A DNA stretch of 64,000 nucleotides from Cyclobacteriaceae bacterium (GTDB lineage: Bacteria > Bacteroidota > Bacteroidia > Cytophagales > Cyclobacteriaceae), in NCBI GenBank assembly GCA_024644875.1, contig JAHEGY010000002.1:1-64000 (forward strand). Direction: 5' to 3'. Each line of letters opens with the position of its first letter. Positions within the stretch are counted from its first letter, which is position 1. Position numbers and translations under genes: made by a program. The notes beneath the pieces were generated by a model that worked only from the letters and a program-made list of their open reading frames with translations, ran no database searches and was not told the DNA's origin. This document shows positions 4,322 through 60,731 of the stretch, in pieces.

Positions 4322-7300
4322 TTAGAAGGATACTCTAAGATTAAATGCGAATCTGCGCACCGAAGGGGTCGCTCCATATTCAATACCTTGAGTATTTGTG
4401 GAACCAAACTGGTTGATTTCCGGATCAAAATTTGTTGATTTGGGGAAATTGGGTGCAGAAAACCACAGATTTCTTCCTACCACAGACAAACTTAATGACC
4501 CAAAAGGAGTTTTATCCAACAATGAATTTGGGAACTCATATGCTAAACTTAATTCTCTCAGTCTGAAAACTGTTGCATCATATACAACCCATTCATCAGC
4601 ACTATTTATTGCAAAAGTATTCCCAAACCATAAAGTGTTTACTTCTACCATAGTTTGATTTGGGATTTTCACACCGTTTTCATTTCTGATTGGTTCATGT
4701 GTATTTGGATCTCCATAAACGCCTGGAATAATTTTGTTTATTTCACGATCCTCTGTTGCTGCCAGCACTCCTCTTCCCAACATAGATTGTATAGTATTGG
4801 AAAATAAATCGCCTCCCTGCCGCCAGTCAAAAACAGCATTCAATGTAAATCCTTTATAGGAAAAGGTATTTATCAATCCTGCAATGAAATCTGGATTTGG
4901 GTTTCCAACAATCTCCTCCTCAAGGGCCAGTATCATTTGTCCATTAGCGGGATCTATCAGGAGGTTGCCATCCTGATCCCTGTCATTTACAGTTCCTTTC
5001 AACAATCCATATTCTTCACCAGGTCTCAGAACACCAGAAACAGAACCGGCAAAGAATTGCTGTAACAGCGTGATTTCTTCAACACCTTCCGTAAGTTCTT
5101 CAACAACATTCTTGTTATGTGTAAATGTGCCATAAATATCCCAAACAAATCCGCCTCCAGACCTGACAGGTGTCAATCCCAAACCTATTTCAACACCTTC
5201 ATTTGTTATTACACCAAAATTTGTAAAATAGCTGGTAAAACCAGATTCATCCGGAAGGGTCAAATTGGCAATCTGGTCGAAAGACCGCCTTTTATAATAG
5301 GTAACATCAAGTTTTATTCGGCCATTTACCAATTGTGACTCCAATCCTGCCTCAAATTCAGATGTTCGTTCGGGCTTTAACAGTGGATCTCTTTCCGTAT
5401 TTTCCAAAGTCGCCCCTGGTACTGTTTGTCCTCCTGAAGGGGTAAATGGCAATTGAGCCGTCGGGCTTGGATTCGTTACCAACACCGTATTAATAAAGTA
5501 TACAGGCTGAAGTTGATAAGGATCTGTATCATTACCTACCTGTGACCATCCAGCTCTAAGTTTAAGGAAAGGCAAAGCGCTAGAATTCATCCCCAAGGCA
5601 TCAGTCAATACTACTGATCCGGTTATGGCTGGATAAAAGAAGCTGTTAGCCCCCTTCGGTAGTGTGGAACTCCAATCGTTTCTACCTGTTAATGTTAGAA
5701 AAGCCCAGTTCTTAAAGCCAAAATTCAGATCGAAGAACAATCCCATTAATCTTCTCTGCTGATGTCCGACTGGTTCATTAGCCGGAAGTTGGCTGCCATA
5801 AGGAATTACGTTATTTGTGTTATCCAATTGATCTATATCAAATACCACATATTGTGTTCCCTGAACAGCTTGTCTGTCTAAAGTTCTTTGATTAATATTC
5901 TGTCCCAAAATACCACGGAATGAAAAATCTTCGTTGATGTCCTTGGTGAAAGTAGCAATCAAATTGGATTCTAATTCAGTATATAGAATATCATCTGTGG
6001 TTACCCTGCCAATGCCCTGTGCACCAGTTGAACCGGGACGGATAAAATCCTTGTTAAACTGACTGTATGTATTTATTCCCAGTTTATATGATAAATTAAA
6101 CCAGTCTGTGATATCATAACCAAGACTGATCTGGGATACAATTCTGGAAACATTTGTTTCACCTCCGGCATTTTCGTAGGACCAATATGGGTTATCAGCC
6201 TGCCCTCTTGCTACCATAAATTCACTTCCATTATCTACTGGATTTTGAAAGGGTTGTCCTTGAACATCCCAGTTTCTACCAAGAAACAATGCTCGTGCAA
6301 AAGCTGACTGGTTATTAGCACCAAGAGATCCAACTCCACTTTGTATGGCTTTCTGAACACTGTTTGTATAAGAAAGATTCGCACCAATAATAAATCCATT
6401 TTCAAGTTCGGTATTACCCCCTGCACTCAATATAAATCTGTCAAAACTTGTGTTTGGCACATATCCGTTGTTCTTCGTGTATGTTGCCGTAACCGAAAGA
6501 ACCGAACGCTCATTCCCGGCTGTAATATTCAATGAATTATCATACATCTGTCCGGTCCGGAACAAGTCCTTAACATTATCAGGATATGCCTGGTATGGGA
6601 CCATCACCCCATCATAATCCGACATTCCTGGTCTACCGGAATACCAGTGCGTTATTGAATCGACATTGGCATAATTCCTTGTTCCATTAAATGGAGCACC
6701 CCATGAACCATTGACCTGCTGGTAATTAAAATTGGTTCCAGTCCCATAAGTATTCTGAAAATCCGGAAGATTAGATATCTGTTCAAAAGCATACGAAGAG
6801 CTGAAGGTCATCTCGAGTTTCTTTCTGGAGGCCTTTGCGCTACCCGTTTTGGTTGTTATCAATATGACTCCGTTCGCTGCCCGTGTACCATAAAGCGCTG
6901 CAGCGGCTGCTCCTTTTAAAACAGTCATTGAGGATATGTTATTTGGGTCAATATCAGCAATCCGGCTACTATATGCTGTTCCATCCCCCAATTGGTTAAA
7001 GGTTCGGAATTCAGAATTATTATAAGGTATTCCATCAACTACAAATAAAGGTTGATTACTTCCAAGTAATGATGAGTTACCTCTGATGTTAATTCTTGTT
7101 GCACTACCCGGTGCACCTCCGGACCCGCTAATGTTTACCCCAGGTATTTTTCCCTGTAGGGCTCTTAACACATCTGGTTCGGACACCTGTGCAACATCTT
7201 CATTATCAACCTGCTCGATCGAATACCCTAAAGCTCGAGATTCCCGTTCAATTCCAACGGCGGTTACCACAACCTCAGAAAGTTGCGTGGATTCATAATC

Positions 7301-51650: not shown

Positions 51651-53576
51651 ATGTTATCCATTAACGATCTATCATACTATATAGGAGGCCGTCCGATCTA
51701 CGAAGATGCTTCATTGCATATTAATGAGAAAGACAAAGTCGGTTTGGTTGGGCCCAATGGTAGCGGTAAAACAACGTTATTGAGGATTATATTGGGTGAT
51801 CTACAAGTAGATAGCGGTTCCATTTCAAAGCAGAAAGATTGCAATATAGGGATATTATATCAGGAGATAAGCATTATAAATGAATCCCTGCCTATACTTT
51901 CAATTGCCCTGCAGGCATTCGATTCGTTATTAAAAATAAAGGAGAAAATCGATAGCCTGATAATCGAGGTTGAAAACGATCATGATACAAAGAAAATAGA
52001 GCTATTGGCTCAATTACAGGAAGAATTTGAGATTAAAGGTGGCTATTCCTTACAATCCAAAGCTGAGGAAATATTGGAGGGGATAGGCTTTAAAACGAGC
52101 GATTTAACCAGGCCGATAAGCGAGTTTTCCGGTGGATGGAAAATGCGGGTTATGCTAGCCAAACTCCTGCTGGAAAAGCCTTCAATCCTGATGTTAGATG
52201 AACCGACAAACCATCTTGATCTACCATCTATTAAGTGGTTTGAAAATTACGTAAAATCCTATGACGGATCCGTAATAATAGTTTCACATGATAAGCGGTT
52301 TCTTGACAATACCACCAACAAAATAATTGAAATAGAGGACCTGAAACTTGTTCAATACACCGGGAATTATTCAAACTATGTTGAAGATAAAATGATGCGG
52401 CAGGAGATTCAGGATAATGCCCATTTGAACCAGCAAAAAAAAATTAAGGAAGCCGAAAAGTTTATTAATCGTTTCAGGGCAAAAGCTACAAAAGCAAGAC
52501 AAGTTCAGTCAAAGATCAAGTTGATGGATAAAATTGAACTTGTGGAGAAATCCAGGGATAATAACAAGGATATAAGGTTTGAATTCAGACTGGGACAGCC
52601 CTCCGGTAAACATGTGCTTGACCTAAAGCAGATTTCGAAATCCTATGGTAAAACAAGGATTTTCGATCAGACATCAGCGAGTATAATGAGGAATGATAAA
52701 ATTGCCCTGATAGGTGCCAATGGATTGGGGAAGAGTACTCTGCTTAAGATCATTTCACATACTATCCCTTTTGAGGGATCTTGTACCCCAGGTCATAATG
52801 TAAATATTTCCTATTATGCACAGCATCAAATTGATGCCTTGAATTACAAGAACAATACTCTTGAGGAGCTTACACAAACCGCTTCAGAATATAGTGAACT
52901 CGAGCTGAGGTCTATCCTTGGTTCTTTTTTGTTTTCCGGAGATGATGTATTCAAAAAGATCAAAAATCTTTCCGGGGGAGAAAAAGCCAGGGTTGCCCTT
53001 GCCAAGGCCCTCATATCCAATGCTAATTTTCTGGTAATGGATGAGCCTACAAACCACCTTGACATTGCCTCTGTGGACATTTTAACAGAAGCTTTGCGAA
53101 GATTCCGGGGATCATTGATAATGGTATCACATGATCGCCAGTTTATTGAAGCCATTGCTAACAAGATCTGGTATATAGAAAATAGGAAAATAAGAGAATA
53201 TCCCGGCACTTATTCTGATTATGAATATCGGGAAGGTAATTTAAACCAGGTGAAGAAAACAGAACCACAAAAACATGAAGAAAGATCTAAAAAGATTTCC
53301 AAATCCAGATCATTTGAAGACCAGAAAAAGTTGAAGAATAAATTAAATTCATTGCATAATAAATTACAGAGGCTGGAGGAGGAAATATCCATACTGGAAG
53401 TAAAGAAGGAGCAAGTTGAAAATCAGATGTTGAAACCAGAAGTATATTCCGATTATGAAAAGCTATCAGGGATGACCACGGAGTTCGAAAATCTTGAAAT
53501 GAAAATCAATAAGAAGCACAGAGCCTGGGAAAAGATGTTCAATGAAATCGAAGAATTGGAGCTTACAATTGGTTAA
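51651..53576 (+). CDS. ABC-F family ATPase (Uup/EttA-like)
   Basis: The 641-residue protein has two ABC domains in one chain and no membrane segment, as in ABC-F proteins that act on ribosomes. Domain 1: Walker A 'GLVGPNGSGKTTLLR', signature 'EFSGGWKMRVMLAK', Walker B 'ILMLDEPTNHLDLPS'. Domain 2: 'LIGANGLGKSTLLK', 'LSGGEKARVALAKAL', 'FLVMDEPTNHLDIAS'. An alpha-helical linker of the P-site tRNA-interaction kind (about residues 245-310) lies between them. The C-terminus is a coiled coil (about 545-640, 'LHNKLQRLEEEISILE'), which points toward the Uup-like group. The stop codon overlaps that of the convergent gene. Confidence 0.92.
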   Translation: MLSINDLSYYIGGRPIYEDASLHINEKDKVGLVGPNGSGKTTLLRIILGDLQVDSGSISKQKDCNIGILYQEISIINESLPILSIALQAFDSLLKIKEKIDSLIIEVENDHDTKKIELLAQLQEEFEIKGGYSLQSKAEEILEGIGFKTSDLTRPISEFSGGWKMRVMLAKLLLEKPSILMLDEPTNHLDLPSIKWFENYVKSYDGSVIIVSHDKRFLDNTTNKIIEIEDLKLVQYTGNYSNYVEDKMMRQEIQDNAHLNQQKKIKEAEKFINRFRAKATKARQVQSKIKLMDKIELVEKSRDNNKDIRFEFRLGQPSGKHVLDLKQISKSYGKTRIFDQTSASIMRNDKIALIGANGLGKSTLLKIISHTIPFEGSCTPGHNVNISYYAQHQIDALNYKNNTLEELTQTASEYSELELRSILGSFLFSGDDVFKKIKNLSGGEKARVALAKALISNANFLVMDEPTNHLDIASVDILTEALRRFRGSLIMVSHDRQFIEAIANKIWYIENRKIREYPGTYSDYEYREGNLNQVKKTEPQKHEERSKKISKSRSFEDQKKLKNKLNSLHNKLQRLEEEISILEVKKEQVENQMLKPEVYSDYEKLSGMTTEFENLEMKINKKHRAWEKMFNEIEELELTIG

Positions 53577-54346
53577 AAGCCAATCCCAATCCTAAAGCTC
53601 AGCCTTTTATATGAGCGGTCCGTTACTCTTTCTCCGCCTCCGCCCCAATCCTGGTGATAAACTGTTTTCTGCATTTTATATCCCAGGGCGATCATTACAT
53701 TTACCCTGTCACCACTATACATCTTAAGTCCAATGCCAGAATGAAACATCATGCCTCCCTCTACATCAATGAATTCCCATCCATTGTTTTCCTGGTTGGT
53801 ATCCCAGGCGCTTCCGTATCCAAGGTCGACAAAATAAAATGGTGTAAAAATGTGATCAATAATATCCCCTCTAAATGAAACGAAAAATGGCAAGGCGGCC
53901 GTGGAATTGTATTGATCATAGGCTATACCCAGTCCAACGGATAAATACCGGTAGATACGAATTCCATTTATTGTCTCCACTGTAAGACTCGCTACAGGTT
54001 GGGTATCATCATTACTTTTACCAGAGAGAATCCCAACCAGTGTATTGTTAAAATACTGGATTTTTAACTTTTGGGAATATTTGTTTTTACCATCAGCCGG
54101 GATATCAGAATTATTATACCTCCGGAAGCTGGCCGTTCTCAGGAGTTGAGTATTCAGTACCATACTGTCTAAAGAATTATAATATACTGTCAGGTAGGGA
54201 GGTAGAGATCTTACTTTTATATAACCATTGACCCGGTCACCATTAGTAGTGGTCGTTGACACTTTTAATCTAGTATCTGTTTGGCCGTATACTGATCCAA
54301 TCGCCAGAATTACTGGCATCAGCATAATGAATATGTACTTAGTCAT
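53573..54346 (-). CDS. probable outer-membrane beta-barrel protein
   Basis: The 257-residue protein has a signal peptide ending near 'GSVYGQ', a soluble-looking N-terminal part ('VSTTTTNGDRVNGYIKVRSLPPYL') and a C-terminal half with alternating, aromatic-rich strands that ends in 'RIGIGF', a terminal Phe typical of outer-membrane barrels. It starts two bases after the LVIVD gene stop, so it is the last gene of the ECF operon. Its stop overlaps the stop of the convergent ABC-F gene. Function is unknown. Confidence 0.6.
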   Translation of the reverse strand: MTKYIFIMLMPVILAIGSVYGQTDTRLKVSTTTTNGDRVNGYIKVRSLPPYLTVYYNSLDSMVLNTQLLRTASFRRYNNSDIPADGKNKYSQKLKIQYFNNTLVGILSGKSNDDTQPVASLTVETINGIRIYRYLSVGLGIAYDQYNSTAALPFFVSFRGDIIDHIFTPFYFVDLGYGSAWDTNQENNGWEFIDVEGGMMFHSGIGLKMYSGDRVNVMIALGYKMQKTVYHQDWGGGGERVTDRSYKRLSFRIGIGF

Positions 54347-54348
54347 GT

Positions 54349-55644
54349 TTACTGGATCTCGTTAGAAATCGGCAGATGGCTCAATAATTGAATATTTTCA
54401 AGAGAAGAATAGTCGTACTGATACAATCCATCTCTTCCAATCATGATTAAATTATCATTGAAAGGAATTACATCGTAGGAATGCATTTCAGTATAGTGTT
54501 TTATTTGGTTACTCGTAATGGTATTTACATCAGATGCGTTGAATATTTTCAGTCCCCATTCACCTTCGCAGATAAACAGAGCATCTCCATCCAATCCCAG
54601 CCCATGTGGATTCTTCATAGGATAGGTTTTTATAAGGAATGGGTTATAGAGGTTACTAATATCAATTACATCCAATTGGTTGGTAAATCCATCACACTCT
54701 GTTCCGGACCGAAGTGTTACAAAGGCATAATCCTCATTAACCACAACAGGATCGCAACTATTGACATGGGCAAACGTCGACATAAATTCCGGTGCAGATG
54801 GCTCCGAAATATCATAAATATACATGCCATTCTGAGCTCCGATAAAAAGGTTATTCTCATAGGGAAAAATTGTTTCTATATTCCATCCAATTTCCACATT
54901 ATTCCCGAATACTGGATCTGAAGTGCTTGTTATGTCAAATACCCCAAGGTTATAACTGCCTATGGTATATAAAATATCGTTAACAATGGCAAACCTCGCC
55001 ATCGATCCTCCGATACCCGTTGGAGATGCAGATGAGGGTGGAGCAGAATTGGGAACAGCGGAATCGTTCATTGCTCCTGCGAATACAAATCCACCTTCAG
55101 CTCTTAAAAATGGAGGCATTACACCGCCACAATCCGGATTATCATACCAGACCGTATCGGTTTCTTCATAGGCGACAACTACAGCCTCCTGATTTTGATC
55201 CAGGAACTCATAGTGATAATGATCGTTGAATACCCCCTCAAGCCTTTTAACAAGCTTAACATCATTTGTATTGGAAATATCCAGTGCAAGAAGATCAACA
55301 TAATTATCAGCAAAAAGGATATTACCCTTTACAGCCATATCATAGTTGCCAGGTATATTGACGAATCCAATATTTACAGGATTCCTTTTATCAGTGTTAT
55401 TTATGATATGAATTCCTTTTCCAACTTCATTAACAAATAAGTAATCTCCATACAGGTAGATCTTGCCCGGAAAGGATAGCTCAACAGGCTCCCGAAATTC
55501 GAAGGCTTCCCGAATCTCCTGGGTGGTCATATAAACCGGTTCCAGATAGGTATAATAGAGTCTTGAATCGCAATCATCAGTACAACCACTTAAAAAAATG
55601 CCTAACAGATAGATTAAGGCTGCAAAATTTCCAATCCTTTTCAT
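54349..55644 (-). CDS. LVIVD-repeat lipoprotein
   Basis: The 431-residue lipoprotein (signal 'YLLGIFLSGC', Cys21) consists of LVIVD-type repeats that form a beta-propeller-like surface domain: 'YGDYLFVNEVGKGIHIINNTDKRNPVNIGF'-type blocks with the pattern 'G..LYVAD...GL.V.DIS.P..P' recurring through residues 60-420, for example 'LDVIDISNLYNPFLIKTY' and 'IYDISEPSAPEF'. Ligand unknown. It is the fourth gene of the sigma-factor operon, 68 bases after the previous gene. LVIVD proteins are frequent in Cytophagales and are usually thought to be surface proteins. Confidence 0.82.
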   Translation of the reverse strand: MKRIGNFAALIYLLGIFLSGCTDDCDSRLYYTYLEPVYMTTQEIREAFEFREPVELSFPGKIYLYGDYLFVNEVGKGIHIINNTDKRNPVNIGFVNIPGNYDMAVKGNILFADNYVDLLALDISNTNDVKLVKRLEGVFNDHYHYEFLDQNQEAVVVAYEETDTVWYDNPDCGGVMPPFLRAEGGFVFAGAMNDSAVPNSAPPSSASPTGIGGSMARFAIVNDILYTIGSYNLGVFDITSTSDPVFGNNVEIGWNIETIFPYENNLFIGAQNGMYIYDISEPSAPEFMSTFAHVNSCDPVVVNEDYAFVTLRSGTECDGFTNQLDVIDISNLYNPFLIKTYPMKNPHGLGLDGDALFICEGEWGLKIFNASDVNTITSNQIKHYTEMHSYDVIPFNDNLIMIGRDGLYQYDYSSLENIQLLSHLPISNEIQ

Positions 55645-55712
55645 GATTTCTGATTATTTGGGTTTTGATATAATGACACGCCTTGAAATCCTATGGTTGT
55701 AATCCCACCGTA

Positions 55713-56462
55713 TTAAAGGGTGTCCTCAAATTGAAATGTAGCATTGATGTAAGTATAGGAAACCTCCTGATATACAGGTATGTTGGTATCAATCCCAACG
55801 GCAATCCAGAGTTTTCCTTCTACATCGGTGGCAACATAAATCGGAAAATCAGAATTTGAACCATTCAGCATGACCGGTTTTTCACCAAGTCCGGTGTATT
55901 CCAGTCTTCCTATCATAGTCATGTCCTGACCGCCCTGATCATCTTCCCCTTTATCAAAATCGGTTTTAACAAGAGAGACATCCGGGTTATCCTCATCCTG
56001 TTCTATGATTGTTTTCGGTTCCGTCTTGAATGCCCCAACTTTCAGGAAGGATCCATATTCAAAATTATCCAAATCACCTGCATACTCTTCTTTAAGTTGA
56101 GAATTAAGTTCTACTTCAATTTTTATGGTATATCTTGAATTTGGTTGCAGACCTGATATCTGCTGTTTCACGAACATGAATAAATCAGAATTCGTGGCAT
56201 GGCCACTTTGTTTAAAAGCGGAAACATTTCCAATAGATTCTGAGATGAACAATGGACTGGGTATATATTCCAATTTCATTGAATCCTCAAATCCTTCCGG
56301 ATAGTCAGCAAATTCTGCGATCCAACCCTCATCTCCTTCATCGAAAAAACTACGTTCAATCAATAATCCATCCGGATTTGCAGGGGCTCCACTATCCAGA
56401 CCACATCCGGATAAAAACAATGAAATCAACACCAAAACACTCCCAAATCTAAGCATATTCAT
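55713..56462 (-). CDS. lipoprotein of unknown function in ECF operon
   Basis: The frame is open from 56513, but the ATG at 56460-56462 (MNMLRF) or 56454-56456 opens the lipoprotein signal ending 'LFLSGC'. The mature part (about 225 residues) is beta-rich, acidic, with 'FKQSGHATNSDLFMFVKQQISGLQPNSRYTIKIEVEL'-type jelly-roll-like segments ('LQPNSRYTIKIEVEL'), suggesting a carbohydrate-binding-module-like fold. No catalytic residues could be assigned. It is 71 bases after the anti-sigma/barrel gene. A TAnnTTTG box (TAATTTTG, minus strand) is at 56481-56488, a possible internal promoter. Confidence 0.6.
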   Translation of the reverse strand: MNMLRFGSVLVLISLFLSGCGLDSGAPANPDGLLIERSFFDEGDEGWIAEFADYPEGFEDSMKLEYIPSPLFISESIGNVSAFKQSGHATNSDLFMFVKQQISGLQPNSRYTIKIEVELNSQLKEEYAGDLDNFEYGSFLKVGAFKTEPKTIIEQDEDNPDVSLVKTDFDKGEDDQGGQDMTMIGRLEYTGLGEKPVMLNGSNSDFPIYVATDVEGKLWIAVGIDTNIPVYQEVSYTYINATFQFEDTL

Positions 56463-56533
56463 AGTTTTAACATTAATTGACAAAATTACTCTTGTTAAAT
56501 ATCTAATTATCATAAACGGTTCTGCTCATAATT

Positions 56534-57991
56534 CTATTTAAAGACATAAGCTATCCCGGCAGAAATCATAAACGCGGAAGGTCGACTGCTGAACCTTGCA
56601 TTACTACTAGTCAATTCATTCAATCCAATCCTGTAGGATGGTTCAAGACTCAGCTGATAATTTTTTAAAAAAGTGTAGTTCACCATAGTTCCAAACCTGC
56701 CGTTAAAGTATATAGAATTGTATGGTGAATCATCGCCCAACTTATATTGAACCGGATCAAATAAGTTCTGCGAATCTTCAATGCTATTTTTAATAAAGAT
56801 ATCAGTACTTACCCCTGCAGTCATTAACCATTTGAATTTTCTATCTACCAGGAAGTATCCAAAATTCACAGGAATTGTTAAGAATTCAAAAGTACTGTTC
56901 AATTGGACCTCTGAATTCAATTCATTATAAGAATTTAGTCCTGATTCAGGGCTGGCCCGCTCAATTACAATGGCATGGTTTGCATATTTCGCGTGACTTT
57001 CTGTCGGTTCGATATAGGTATTTACGGACGTAGAACCAAAATTATGCTGGTATCCTACCCCACTAAACAGAACGAATTTCTTGCTGAATTTATATCCAAA
57101 ATCCAGACCATAAGATACGGACATTTCTGAATTATAACCTGATTCCTCAGGTTTATAGGAAGCAAGGAAGTTCGATTGACTTTGAAGGTCCGCACTTGCA
57201 GCATCAATACGCTCTACAGAACCAAGTGTATTGGGAGTAGCATCAGCCATAATATCCGGAGATCCATTATAATTTATGTTTGGATCAAAGACACCGGAAG
57301 ACACCATTATACCAGCCCACAATTTACCGGGATCCTCTTCCTCTTCTTCAATTTCCAAAGGTATTAGGTATGGTTCATCAAATGGATTTACTTTCTTCTG
57401 AAGATAAAGTTTTCTCCCTGGTTTTTCATAAGGCACGTTAAATGATGATTCAGGATGATAAGATAAAACCGCATAATTCTTCAAATAATTTCCACCAGAG
57501 TCCAACTGTTTATTATCTTTTAGGTGGTTGGAAGTCTGAAATGCAATTACACTTTCTGAATTATCATCAATTTTTTGCTTATTAAGGGTAGCCCTGTTTT
57601 GGATTGTTTTATTTGGATTGGCCTTATTCAAATTAGCTTCAGAAACAGCATTGTCAATATCTTGCAGGTTCGGTATACGTTCTGCTTGAGTATCCTTGGG
57701 ATCTACCTTGTTACCATTACTTTCTATAACAGGAGAAGGTAGGCTTACGAGTTGCTCAGATCCTGAATTCGAAACAAGATTATATAAAATATAGGATCCA
57801 AATAATAAAGCCAGTAAGACTGATGCTGCAGCAGTTATCTGATAATAGAACAATTTCTTTTTATATCGTTTTAGTTCATTCCCTGCCATTGAAGCATCGA
57901 TTCTATCCCACACGGATGCTGCAGGTGTTGCCTCAGTATCCTCAAACTTTTCCTTCCATCTATTTTCGAAATTATCGTTCAGCTTCTTCAT
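56534..57991 (-). CDS. dual-membrane-spanning anti-sigma factor with outer-membrane barrel
   Basis: The start at 57989-57991 (MKKLNDNF) gives 485 residues. Residues about 1-60 are a short cytoplasmic domain ('FENRWKEKFEDTEATPAASVWDRI', quoted in part: 'ATPAASVWDRIDASM') of the sort that binds ECF sigma factors. A transmembrane helix follows at about 51-72, then a low-complexity, Asn/Gln-rich periplasmic linker (about 75-200), and a C-terminal PorT-like beta-barrel (about 215-485, ending 'MISAGIAYVFK'). It thus crosses both membranes, as in the Dma family described in Bacteroides thetaiotaomicron. It overlaps the ECF sigma gene by 20 bases. Confidence 0.82.
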   Translation of the reverse strand: MKKLNDNFENRWKEKFEDTEATPAASVWDRIDASMAGNELKRYKKKLFYYQITAAASVLLALLFGSYILYNLVSNSGSEQLVSLPSPVIESNGNKVDPKDTQAERIPNLQDIDNAVSEANLNKANPNKTIQNRATLNKQKIDDNSESVIAFQTSNHLKDNKQLDSGGNYLKNYAVLSYHPESSFNVPYEKPGRKLYLQKKVNPFDEPYLIPLEIEEEEEDPGKLWAGIMVSSGVFDPNINYNGSPDIMADATPNTLGSVERIDAASADLQSQSNFLASYKPEESGYNSEMSVSYGLDFGYKFSKKFVLFSGVGYQHNFGSTSVNTYIEPTESHAKYANHAIVIERASPESGLNSYNELNSEVQLNSTFEFLTIPVNFGYFLVDRKFKWLMTAGVSTDIFIKNSIEDSQNLFDPVQYKLGDDSPYNSIYFNGRFGTMVNYTFLKNYQLSLEPSYRIGLNELTSSNARFSSRPSAFMISAGIAYVFK

Positions 57992-58526
57992 AATTTCCTC
58001 TATCACTCTCAATTAATTTCAGTTGCAACAAAGATTTAGCTCTGGAATACTGTGATTTTGATGTCCCCTCACTAATTTTAAGTTGCTCAGCTATTTCCTT
58101 ATGCGTGTATCCCTCAATGGCATAAAGGTTAAAAATAACCTGGCACCCAAGAGGAAGATCCTGGATCATATTCAGCAATTCCTCATGATGAAAATTAGAA
58201 AGCGCTACATTTTCATCATAAGATATTTTCAAATGTTCTACATTGACCATGGGGTATAGATACAACTTACTTCGTTGATAATTCAAAGCAGTATTTATGA
58301 CTATCTTTTTAATCCAGGCTGCTACATTTGTATATTCTCTCAGATTTTTCAGGTTCTTAAATATTTTAATGAACGATTCCTGCAATATATCTTCTGCTTC
58401 CAAATCTGATTTTGAATATCTAAAACAGATCATCATCATCTTCGATGCAAAAAGATCGTAAAGCTTTTTCTGAGCTTTCCGATCTTCAGCTATGCAGTCA
58501 TTAATTAATTGTTTGAAATCTTCCAT
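57972..58526 (-). CDS. ECF-type RNA polymerase sigma factor
   Basis: The 184-residue protein has region 2 (about 10-75, 'DLEAEDILQESFIKIFKNL', the -10 recognition and core-binding helix) and region 4 (about 120-170, 'EGYTHKEIAEQLKISEGTSKSQYSRAK', a helix-turn-helix for the -35 element; quoted in part as 'HKEIAEQLKISEGTSKS'). The typical 'LP..CQVIFNLYAIEGY' precedes region 4. It is the first gene of a minus-strand operon and overlaps its anti-sigma partner by 20 bases. It likely auto-regulates the operon, but no clear ECF -35/-10 pair could be defined in the 106-base divergent spacer. Confidence 0.92.
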   Translation of the reverse strand: MEDFKQLINDCIAEDRKAQKKLYDLFASKMMMICFRYSKSDLEAEDILQESFIKIFKNLKNLREYTNVAAWIKKIVINTALNYQRSKLYLYPMVNVEHLKISYDENVALSNFHHEELLNMIQDLPLGCQVIFNLYAIEGYTHKEIAEQLKISEGTSKSQYSRAKSLLQLKLIESDRGNYEEAER

Positions 58527-58632
58527 TCAATGCCTGACATCTTATTGGCATCGATTTTATCTAATGACACCAATATGATATATTTGGTTGGAAATTAAAT
58601 TAATTTCTATTTTTATCGTTTAAATATAACAA

Positions 58633-59931
58633 ATGAAAAAAGCAACCTTCGTTATTTTCGCTCTTATTATCTTTTTTAACGACTATTCAATTAAAAAAGT
58701 CTATTCAAAATCCAATAACCATTTAAAGAATAATACCGATCTGGAATACAGGGATTTTATTTATAATCCCGATATAAAGACTGTAAACCTGTATCCCGAC
58801 AAGAATATCAGATCAAAAATCGAGCCACCGGCGATTAACATAGCTTCACCGAACCAATTAATACTCGAATTTGATGAGTTATATCAGGATGCCGGATATT
58901 TTCAGGCAAAAATTATTCACTGTACCTGGGATTGGCAACCATCAGACATAAGATCTATTGAATACTTATCGGCCTACAATGAATTTGATATACATGAATA
59001 TGAATATAGCGTTTATTCCAGGATCCCATACACTCATTACACTTTTGTGTTACCACGGGTCGTTCTTCCCGGTAATTATCTGCTTGTTGTCTATGATAGA
59101 GACAATCCGGATGAATTGGCTTTTTCTAAAAGATTCATGATATATGATCAGATAATAAATATTGCATTTTCGTATGGTGAATCTATGGGGGTCCGGGAGC
59201 AGAGGACACATCAGCAAATTGATTTTATCCTTAACTACAGTAAAATTGATTTGTTCAATCCACAAAGAGATATAAAAGTAGTTGTGCGTCAGAACCAGTC
59301 ATGGGTTACAGCAATATATAATTTGAAACCAACCCAGATTGATGAATTTAAGAAAGAATTGGAATACAGGCCCTTCAATTTAGAAAATAATTTTTTCGGA
59401 GGTAATGAATTCAGGTTTTTCGATCTGAATTCTGTGATCGCTCCCGGCAGAAATGTAGACCGTGTATTCATCAAGGAAGACAGGGTAGATGCATTTTTGC
59501 TTCAGGATAAGATTAGGAAAAAGGAATTCTACAGCATCTGGGATGATCTTAATGGGGGCTTTATTATATCTAATATTGATGGGCAGGATCCCAGACTTGA
59601 ATCCGATTACGTTAACGTTCATTTCTTCCTTCAATCCCCTCAAAAGCTTAACTCGGACATATACATATTCGGAAAACTAAGCAATTACGACCTGCTTCCA
59701 GAATATAAAATGAAATACGATGATGAGTTGAAAGGTTATATAGCAGATGCTCTACTAAAACAGGGATGGTATGATTATATCTATTACACTCCAGATGATT
59801 TATATGCAGTTGAAGGGAGTCATTTTGAAACAGAGAATGATTATGAAATCCTGGTTTATATTAAACCACAAGGCAGAACATATGATGTTCTCGCAGGATA
59901 TGTATCGTTCAATACTGGCCGAAGGAACTAA
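58633..59931 (+). CDS. DUF5103 / type IX secretion system plug-family protein
   Basis: The 432-residue protein has an N-terminal leader (MKKATFVIFALIIFFNDYSI) and matches the DUF5103 family, in which Plug occludes the periplasmic side of the SprA translocon in type IX secretion. Recognisable features are 'YRDFIYNPDIKTVNLYP', 'IIHCTWDWQPSDI', 'YSVYSRIPYTHYTFVLP' and 'FMIYDQIINIAFSYGES'. Length is typical. A TAnnTTTG box (TATATTTG) is at 58579-58586, without a clear partner. It ends overlapping by four bases the convergent Cas6-family gene. Confidence 0.82.
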   Translation: MKKATFVIFALIIFFNDYSIKKVYSKSNNHLKNNTDLEYRDFIYNPDIKTVNLYPDKNIRSKIEPPAINIASPNQLILEFDELYQDAGYFQAKIIHCTWDWQPSDIRSIEYLSAYNEFDIHEYEYSVYSRIPYTHYTFVLPRVVLPGNYLLVVYDRDNPDELAFSKRFMIYDQIINIAFSYGESMGVREQRTHQQIDFILNYSKIDLFNPQRDIKVVVRQNQSWVTAIYNLKPTQIDEFKKELEYRPFNLENNFFGGNEFRFFDLNSVIAPGRNVDRVFIKEDRVDAFLLQDKIRKKEFYSIWDDLNGGFIISNIDGQDPRLESDYVNVHFFLQSPQKLNSDIYIFGKLSNYDLLPEYKMKYDDELKGYIADALLKQGWYDYIYYTPDDLYAVEGSHFETENDYEILVYIKPQGRTYDVLAGYVSFNTGRRN

Positions 59932-60731
59932 ATATAGTTTTCCACCTTGTATTCTTTTGTCCTTTTGGTAGGATCGATATTAGCCAGATCCAGCATTCCA
60001 AATCCCTTATGAGTAAATGCACCTAAGCCCAGGATAAAGACAAATTTCTGTACTTCAGGAGCTGCATATAGTGTAAACGGGAAAGTATAACCGCGGACCT
60101 CATATTTAACATCCTGATCGAAAACAGGATAAATCCTGGCAAATTTTTTCTGGCTTTGCTCAATCTTCACAAGATAAGAATGATCAGGTACCAGCTGAAA
60201 CTTAAAAAAGGTTTTAAGTTGTTCAGGCGTAAACAGTTTCGACTGGTTCATTCTGAGAATGGTGGATTCGTATAATAGATCTGAAAACTCATCTGTCTCC
60301 GGATGAATGAATTTTTTACCTTCGGAATCGTTGAATTTTGGTGAAGTCAACACGATGGGAGAAATGCAGATGTATTTATTGACATTTTCAAAATCAATCA
60401 TTTGTTCTTCTTCGACCATTTCAGGGATTAAAGTAAGATTCCCTACCTCGAGCTGCGGAAAATCAAACACATTCTTTACAAAATAGTCAATAAAGTCCTT
60501 ATTCATGCAGGAAATGACCAGAGTTACCCTGCTCGAAAAGAAATGTAATCCATTACGGCTGATCTTGGTCTGTCCTTTTAATCCCGAAAAGTTATATCCG
60601 ATATAGTTGAAGTATTCCTCTTTCCCACCTTTAAGCAAGATACCTTTGATTAGCTGGGTAAGGAGATACTGATGATGAAATGGAACATATCCACCTTTAT
60701 TCTTTAAAATAAAAATTAATCTGATCCTCAA
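59928..60731 (-). CDS. cas6: Cas6-family protein, isolated
   Basis: The 267-residue protein looks like Cas6, the RAMP endoribonuclease that cuts pre-crRNA: N-terminal strand 'MRIRLIFILKNKGG' then 'VPFHHQYLLTQLIKGIL', where His19/His20 are candidates for the active-site histidine, and the C-terminal glycine-rich loop 'GLGAFTHKGFGML' (235-247). No CRISPR array and no other cas gene lie in the window, and its neighbours are a type IX protein and ychF. A role outside CRISPR, for example RNA processing or binding, cannot be excluded. Similar isolated copies are, to my memory, seen in other Cytophagales. Confidence 0.75.
   Translation of the reverse strand: MRIRLIFILKNKGGYVPFHHQYLLTQLIKGILLKGGKEEYFNYIGYNFSGLKGQTKISRNGLHFFSSRVTLVISCMNKDFIDYFVKNVFDFPQLEVGNLTLIPEMVEEEQMIDFENVNKYICISPIVLTSPKFNDSEGKKFIHPETDEFSDLLYESTILRMNQSKLFTPEQLKTFFKFQLVPDHSYLVKIEQSQKKFARIYPVFDQDVKYEVRGYTFPFTLYAAPEVQKFVFILGLGAFTHKGFGMLDLANIDPTKRTKEYKVENYI

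Follow-up and report, generated by a model that had tools for sequence, protein, structure and literature searches.

A dual-membrane anti-sigma factor and its sigma factor as a candidate switch for surface-directed lipoproteins in Cytophagales

Introduction

How is an extracytoplasmic function (ECF) sigma factor controlled when its presumed anti-sigma factor seems to reach through both membranes of the cell, and which genes does it in turn control? The question is raised by five neighbouring genes on the minus strand of a 64,000-nucleotide stretch of DNA from a Cyclobacteriaceae bacterium of the order Cytophagales (positions 1 to 64,000 of contig JAHEGY010000002.1), the whole of which we call the window. 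They encode an ECF sigma factor (SIG), a predicted dual-membrane anti-sigma factor (ASB), a lipoprotein (LIP), an LVIVD-repeat lipoprotein (LVI) and a predicted outer-membrane barrel (BAR). By computation we determined the architecture of these proteins, their gene order among relatives, a promoter motif, and the placement of this motif before LVI and before lipoprotein genes. We propose, at a probability of roughly 0.7, that SIG and ASB form an outer-membrane stress switch, with LVI-BAR, LIP and other surface-directed lipoproteins as its outputs.

In Proteobacteria the autoregulated ECF sigma factor RpoE is freed by the inner-membrane anti-sigma factor RseA upon outer-membrane trouble. RseA ends in the periplasm, whereas the anti-sigma factor of the window is itself predicted to carry an outer-membrane barrel. 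This layout is known in Bacteroidales, and the experimental work that we found on membrane-bridging anti-sigma factors comes from gut members of that order. For what follows we take the toxin Bd-A to be bacteroidetocin A. Dma2 is described as a sigma-binding part, a membrane helix, a disordered tether and a barrel, and genes neighbouring the Dma system as rising upon loss of the anti-sigma factor (PMC13088901). EcfO-Reo of Phocaeicola vulgatus is described as the pair with the strongest rise in response to the toxins BcpT or Bd-A, as driving NigD surface lipoproteins and as a proposed sensor of outer-membrane stress (PMC9308784, PMC13114119); bacteroidetocin A is stated to inhibit BamA (PMC9308784). 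It is because of its Dma2-like layout, together with the toxin response of EcfO-Reo and its NigD regulon, that we read the pair in the window as an outer-membrane stress switch with a surface-lipoprotein output.

Results

SIG and a predicted membrane-bridging anti-sigma factor

SIG (184 residues; 57972..58526, minus strand, as are the other four genes) exceeds the Pfam cut-offs for both Sigma70_r2 and Sigma70_r4_2 and the cut-off of the general sigma70-ECF model of NCBIfam; it scores below the cut-offs of the narrower NCBIfam models TIGR02985 and NF058625. It is 46–73% identical to 23 aligned orthologues. The gene overlaps ASB by 20 bases (57972-57991). ASB runs over 56534..57991 (485 residues) when counted from its ATG; the program that listed the open reading frames (ORFs) starts it at an upstream TTG, 58012. 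The five genes, their order, their strand and the overlap are as given in the preliminary description of this DNA, which had been made from the sequence alone.

Neither ASB nor BAR has a Pfam match at E 1, and LIP has only one, far below its cut-off. In the AlphaFold2 model of ASB, based on 45 sequences, helices span residues 4-19 and 25-76; from 78 to about 215 confidence is low, and between 224 and 484 the chain forms eight long strands, for the most part at high confidence (whole chain: mean pLDDT 70.1, pTM 0.52). Since the most hydrophobic 19-residue segments start at residues 47-56, with a hydrophobic stretch at about 51-73, the membrane helix is placed inside the second helix. Across the 45 aligned proteins the linker measures 100-269 residues, which is probably long enough to span the periplasm. 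Of the 50 best matches that Foldseek lists for this model, each is either an outer-membrane barrel or a designed membrane barrel, with OmpA in the lead, and the predicted fold is OmpA/OmpW-like. BAR (53573..54346) is predicted to consist of a signal peptide, a small beta domain of low confidence and an eight-stranded barrel between residues 97 and 256, with pLDDT mostly above 90. Its 50 best listed matches are again outer-membrane or designed membrane barrels, here led by OmpW (OmpW/NspA-like).

Model and hydropathy thus agree with the earlier proposal that ASB comprises a cytoplasmic part, one membrane helix, a disordered linker and a C-terminal barrel. Prediction of that barrel had been set beforehand as a test, and the claim holds, as a prediction, for ASB and also for BAR. 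Gene layout, the ASB model and the adjacency of the two genes likewise support a single-chain bridge of the Dma type encoded next to an ECF sigma factor, and SIG is presumably bound by ASB.

Gene order in related genomes

The genome that holds the window comprises 5.06 Mb in 254 contigs (the window being on contig C3). ASB and LVI were searched in 59 genomes, this one included; matches to ASB were obtained in 32 and to LVI in 46, split forms of LVI counted. Loci were drawn from two sources: unnamed relatives picked via ASB or LVI (source 1), and named genomes picked via a related sigma factor, from which the best 80 of 583 loci were taken (source 2). By record title these best 80 are mostly from Cyclobacteriaceae, Flammeovirgaceae, Hymenobacter, Pontibacter, Spirosoma and other Cytophagales, a few being labelled Flavobacteriales, Bacteroidales or Chitinophagaceae. 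Removal of redundancy left 74 SIG genes in source 2, and together with 30 loci found through ASB and the window these make 105 SIG loci.

In source 1 linkage of SIG and ASB is by construction, since the loci were picked through ASB, and the count for loci found by SIG alone is therefore given apart. ASB lies directly behind SIG in 70 of these 74 (five of the 70 matches being below 50 bits), while two loci end there and two fall below threshold; chance would not account for such a linkage. Over all 105 loci ASB is directly behind SIG in 100 and overlaps it in 81.

LVI is found on the same strand within seven genes of SIG in 31 of the 105 loci (9 from source 1, 21 from source 2, and the window), with BAR directly after it in 30 of these 31. 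In 60 loci with no contig end nearby LVI is not close to SIG, and 14 more are cut off by a contig end. LVI-BAR is also encoded far from SIG, or where ASB was not detected in the genome (G002, G018, G021, G026, G031 and G034). The "stable addition" of the three downstream genes to the pair is therefore not supported in its first wording: LVI-BAR is recurrently linked, but the linkage is not obligatory and LIP is rarely included.

Between ASB and LVI, loci of Arundinibacter, Dyadobacter, Persicitalea, Telluribacter and Larkinella encode a lipoprotein 403-416 residues long, and the three that were checked (L149, L151 and L162) are serpins by Pfam, at 340-365 bits. Dyadobacter belongs to the Spirosomataceae, as presumably do the other four genera.

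A promoter motif before SIG and LVI

Enumeration of spaced word pairs in 103 sequences upstream of SIG yielded CCAAC-N17-TGTC, an ECF-type promoter pattern that is present in 32 of the 103 and in a mean of 0.0 over five Markov resamplings. A weight matrix was then refined on the SIG upstreams only and applied at a threshold of 14 bits or more. Such a site precedes 89 of the 103 SIG genes, a figure that is partly by construction as the matrix was trained on these sequences. It also precedes 27 of the 31 linked LVI genes and 6 of 16 unlinked ones, as well as 4 of 11 genes for the N-terminal half of a split LVI (see below). Six control families gave a single hit in 254 genes (ABC-F 0/25, ASB 0/89, BAR 0/43, PLUG 0/37, YchF 0/32, Cas6-like 1/28), and 2.0% of 3000 random 420-bp pieces contained a site.

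The two best sites of the window are those before SIG and before LVI. The former (ATTTCCAACCAAATATATCATATTGGTGTCATTAGA; 58560..58595, minus strand; 25.7 bits) is the predicted promoter of SIG-ASB-LIP, and the latter (GATTACAACCATAGGATTTCAAGGCGTGTCATTATA; 55669..55704, minus strand; 22.4 bits) a second predicted promoter, of LVI-BAR. In ten Markov-resampled windows the maximum was 18.2 bits.

We also compared relatives with and without ASB, retrieving the best LVI locus from 29 of them. A relative was scored as lacking ASB if a single query gave no match at E 1e-5. A site of at least 14 bits precedes LVI in 18 of 21 relatives with ASB versus one of eight without (Fisher p 0.0005). In ten of the 18, LVI is away from ASB in the assembly (G001, G004, G005, G009, G012, G016, G025, G032, G036 and G046), the separation in G001 being possibly a mere contig break. 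That the motif before LVI tracks the presence of ASB is the strongest single argument for LVI as a target of SIG, which would then be the factor that reads CCAAC-N17-TGTC.

Where LVI does not follow ASB, the motif (at least 10 bits) is still found behind ASB in 20 of 70 loci. In 11 loci it precedes an ORF of 31-51 residues with a single membrane helix (L069, L072, L074, L076, L121, L160, L166, L168, L169, L191 and L192). The small ORF of L076 is plainly the leader of LVI (METLENRLQKR...LYALLFL), with the propeller absent, and those of Pontibacter loci keep a GWYxLL core. It may be either a relic or a working microprotein.

LVI and LIP

LVI (54349..55644; mature start CTDDC) scores 39.2 bits against the LVIVD family, PF08309, for which the gathering cut-off is 20.2, and thus belongs to this family of beta-propeller repeats. 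In an alignment of 24 sequences the lipobox cysteine C21 and the cysteines C297 and C317 are invariant. As a member of its family LVI is distinguished by being a lipoprotein that is paired with the gene of an eight-stranded barrel and preceded by an ECF-type promoter motif. We infer that LVI and BAR bind each other.

LIP (55713..56513; lipobox LSGC) probably starts at the ATG at 56462, as judged by eye. It is the least conserved neighbour, being found beside ASB only in the window and in G010 among the loci compared, and beside LVI in G001, at a contig end. From gene order we first suspected an accidental neighbour, an idea that was dropped once lipoproteins homologous to LIP (E 1e-24 to 1e-25) turned up behind this promoter motif in G011, G012 and G015. 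The three downstream genes are thus tied to the promoter in different ways: LVI directly, BAR by its position behind LVI, and LIP through its homologues and its position behind ASB. With respect to their linkage elsewhere, which the preliminary description had put forward for checking, LVI and BAR are found linked to such pairs and LIP rarely so, yet with homologues behind the same motif.

A paralogue of LVI is split into two adjacent lipoprotein-like genes in 11 loci (L101-L104, L106-L111 and L113; for example L104:4307-4834 and 4908-5654, plus strand). The two genes correspond to the N- and C-terminal parts of the propeller and each starts with a signal peptide and lipobox, as judged by eye, so that the propeller is apparently built from two lipidated chains. 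Matches in two pieces, seen in many genomes, had suggested a programmed frameshift in LVI; this was rejected when the pieces proved to be separate genes of this kind. The LVI of L094 has an in-frame break of one stop, which marks a pseudogene or is an error. A BAR-like protein might be encoded behind the split pair; comparison gave a best hmmsearch E of 0.00025 for one of 11 sequences and an hhalign probability of 42% over 61 columns. In L097, L098, L116, L117 and L118, from genomes where ASB was not detected, LVI-BAR is preceded by a gene of 137-141 residues.

Genes behind the motif across genomes

The genome of the window contains four exact matches to the strict pattern and one to the same pattern written backwards. 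The four stand before SIG, LVI, a serpin lipoprotein gene that is cut by a contig end, and a DUF4136 lipoprotein gene that is followed by a barrel-like gene (just under the Pfam cut-off). In 20 relatives, in two batches, 72 and 37 sites were found as compared with 27 and 12 for the backward control.

From the 113 sites listed for these 21 genomes (4, 72 and 37), 99 distinct ones were classed. The other 14 were left unclassed, with no further locus retrieved; nine of them are at SIG, three at LVI and two just behind ASB. Of the 99, 23 lie inside ORFs, 14 have no gene behind them and 62 precede a gene. By our lipobox rule 38 of these 62 genes encode lipoproteins, against a baseline of 201 in 1550 (13%; p 9e-18), and six of the 62 are SIG. 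An earlier, stricter rule had missed obvious lipoproteins and a looser one was adopted, which itself misses four that are seen by eye (L299, L264, L274 and L208) and that stand outside the 38. For the backward control, run in 11 genomes of which nine have sites, all 28 sites were classed; 26 fall within ORFs, one precedes the gene of a non-lipoprotein and one has no gene behind it.

At least two acidic residues among the six after the cysteine are described as a mark of lipoproteins that are likely to be exported to the surface (PMC12578637). Among the 38 site-preceded lipoproteins, 32 have at least two D or E in the six residues that follow the cysteine, as compared with 45% of the baseline lipoproteins (p 6e-6), so that most of the 38 have export-like starts and may be surface-exposed. 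Among the families met with repeatedly behind sites, in different genomes, are LVI, LIP, the serpins, an FKBP-like group (named by eye) and several unnamed groups of small lipoproteins.

Ten further genomes, six from the same family and four from other families of the order, contain 54 sites versus 16 for the backward control, and here the lipoprotein signal is weaker.

Five proteins encoded behind sites (L217, L243, L288, L290 and L354) cluster by sequence and have no lipobox by the rule. A carboxypeptidase-regulatory-like stretch (named by eye) opens several of them, and the distance from site to gene start is 80 to 284 bases. They are possibly a second class of targets, or due to chance.

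Discussion

We propose the following mechanism. The N-terminal part of ASB would retain SIG at the inner membrane, and the C-terminal barrel of ASB would sit in the outer membrane. Upon disturbance of this outer membrane, or of the assembly of barrels into it, ASB would release SIG, either by proteolysis or through loss of the folded barrel; the inducing signal would thus be outer-membrane trouble. As the barrel of ASB would be assembled by the very machine on which it reports, it could act as a simple sentinel. Freed SIG would initiate transcription at promoters of the CCAAC-N17-TGTC type, activating its own operon SIG-ASB-LIP in a positive feedback, together with LVI-BAR and scattered surface-directed lipoproteins that differ between species (the LIP family, serpins and others). 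LVI and BAR would then be a lipoprotein and its outer-membrane barrel partner made as part of the response, and a serpin encoded in the same operons would suit protection from proteases.

By its layout the pair is of the Dma and EcfO-Reo kind. It shares with Dma, so far as that system is described, an ECF sigma gene beside an anti-sigma factor with an N-terminal sigma-binding part, a single membrane helix, a long disordered tether and a C-terminal barrel. The likeness is one of described layout, across two orders (Cytophagales here, Bacteroidales for Dma), and the downstream genes differ, being DUF4943, DUF4858 and enoyl-reductase-like genes in Dma and LIP, LVI and BAR in the window. The assignment to ECF21, the rise in vesicle output upon loss and the effects on polysaccharide loci are described for Dma. 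With EcfO/Reo of Bacteroides fragilis and Phocaeicola vulgatus the pair shares, by prediction, an anti-sigma factor that spans both membranes and has a barrel. The output there is NigD, whereas those lipoproteins that we recognised belong to the LVIVD, serpin and LIP families and to unnamed ones. SIG may, by prediction, also be an autoregulated, lipoprotein-driving factor.

What is new is the proposed regulatory logic: the promoter sequence, LVI-BAR and serpins as outputs, and a predicted lipoprotein regulon in Cytophagales. In open-access literature we found no paper that joins "LVIVD" with "anti-sigma", and neither this promoter sequence, nor LVI-BAR or serpin outputs, nor a Cytophagales lipoprotein regulon of this kind was found among the titles and starts of abstracts listed (12 of 148 in one case), where the Bacteroidales studies cited here were alone of direct relevance, a coverage from which subscription papers are mostly absent. 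A concrete promoter sequence with a predicted regulon could be tested in free-living Cytophagales. It would extend the link between membrane bridges and surface lipoproteins to a second order of this phylum and, if true, make it directly testable what the bridge senses and protects against.

Several observations weigh against a stress switch with this output. Motif sites of at least 14 bits precede neither of the two LIP genes tested as such, and LIP of the window has one acidic residue among the six after its cysteine. Three genomes with ASB have no such site right before LVI (G003, G030, with 11.1 bits, and G040); in G040 the site stands instead before a small lipoprotein gene directly upstream of LVI (139 residues, L343). 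G047 has the motif before LVI with no ASB detected, and in 50 of the 70 ASB loci without LVI next no 10-bit motif is found behind ASB. Since its own genome has four exact sites as compared with one backward, the regulon may be very small. The lipoprotein rule is home-made, though fixed and used alike on the genes behind sites and on the baseline; at least one of the proteins counted by it (L224) seems to have a plain signal peptide, and four LVI and one split LVI are counted among the 38. In the ten further genomes, 30 of the 54 sites were classed, and only seven of the 19 genes behind them encode lipoproteins by the rule (six sites lie inside ORFs and five have no gene); the 12 other genes include three SIG and one LVI that the rule missed. 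Finally, relatives share history and are not independent samples, so that p values such as 0.0005 serve only as a guide.

The preliminary description had suggested instead that LVI and BAR form a surface sensor module, which would touch the barrel of ASB and pass a signal to it. Linkage to SIG-ASB in 31 of 105 loci agrees with this, as does the prediction of both as envelope proteins, and a regulated protein can feed back on its own regulator. LVI, however, carries the promoter motif of the sigma gene, also where it is unlinked, which makes an output role likelier than a sensor; LVI is not close to SIG in 60 loci with no contig end nearby, and LVI-BAR persists in the six genomes without a detected ASB. 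We therefore judge a sensor module unlikely. Another possibility is a real motif that is recognised by a different ECF sigma factor, or by several paralogues, with SIG merely one of its targets. SIG-like genes additional to SIG are present near the locus in L062, L063 and L064, the motif test is correlative, and G047 has the motif at LVI with no ASB detected. Yet 89 of 103 SIG genes from one clade are preceded by the motif, which at LVI also tracks the presence of ASB, as would be expected for an autoregulated ECF factor, and we give this explanation little weight.

A stress switch with lipoprotein output may be part of something more general. In Cytophagales a trans-envelope anti-sigma factor, its barrel a client of the barrel-assembly machine, might serve as a sentinel of outer-membrane assembly or attack and control a dedicated regulon of surface lipoproteins (LVI-BAR, surface serpins and species-specific lipoproteins), and the leader peptide of LVI, which in some genomes with LVI not behind ASB stands alone under the promoter, might act back on the system. 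We offer this extension only tentatively and regard it as doubtful in its full form.

Divergent from SIG lies PLUG (58633..59931, plus strand), which encodes a type 9 secretion system (T9SS) plug protein, with PF17116 as its first domain, and which we do not hold to be part of the system. Divergent PLUG genes within two genes of SIG are found in 37 of 103 loci, and an ECF sigma factor, SigP, is described in a cascade that regulates the T9SS of Porphyromonas gingivalis (PMC4800418), both of which could point to control of type 9 secretion by SIG-ASB. The motif, however, precedes none of the 37 PLUG genes, the plug gene being the only T9SS gene looked at, and that of the window points toward SIG; the idea was accordingly dropped as very improbable. 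The other genes of the plug block (Cas6-like and YchF) appear to be merely syntenic. Between the plug and YchF genes the window has a gene of the Cas6 family (59928-60731, minus strand; PF01881, by Pfam), and Cas6-like homologues occupy the same position in many related loci.

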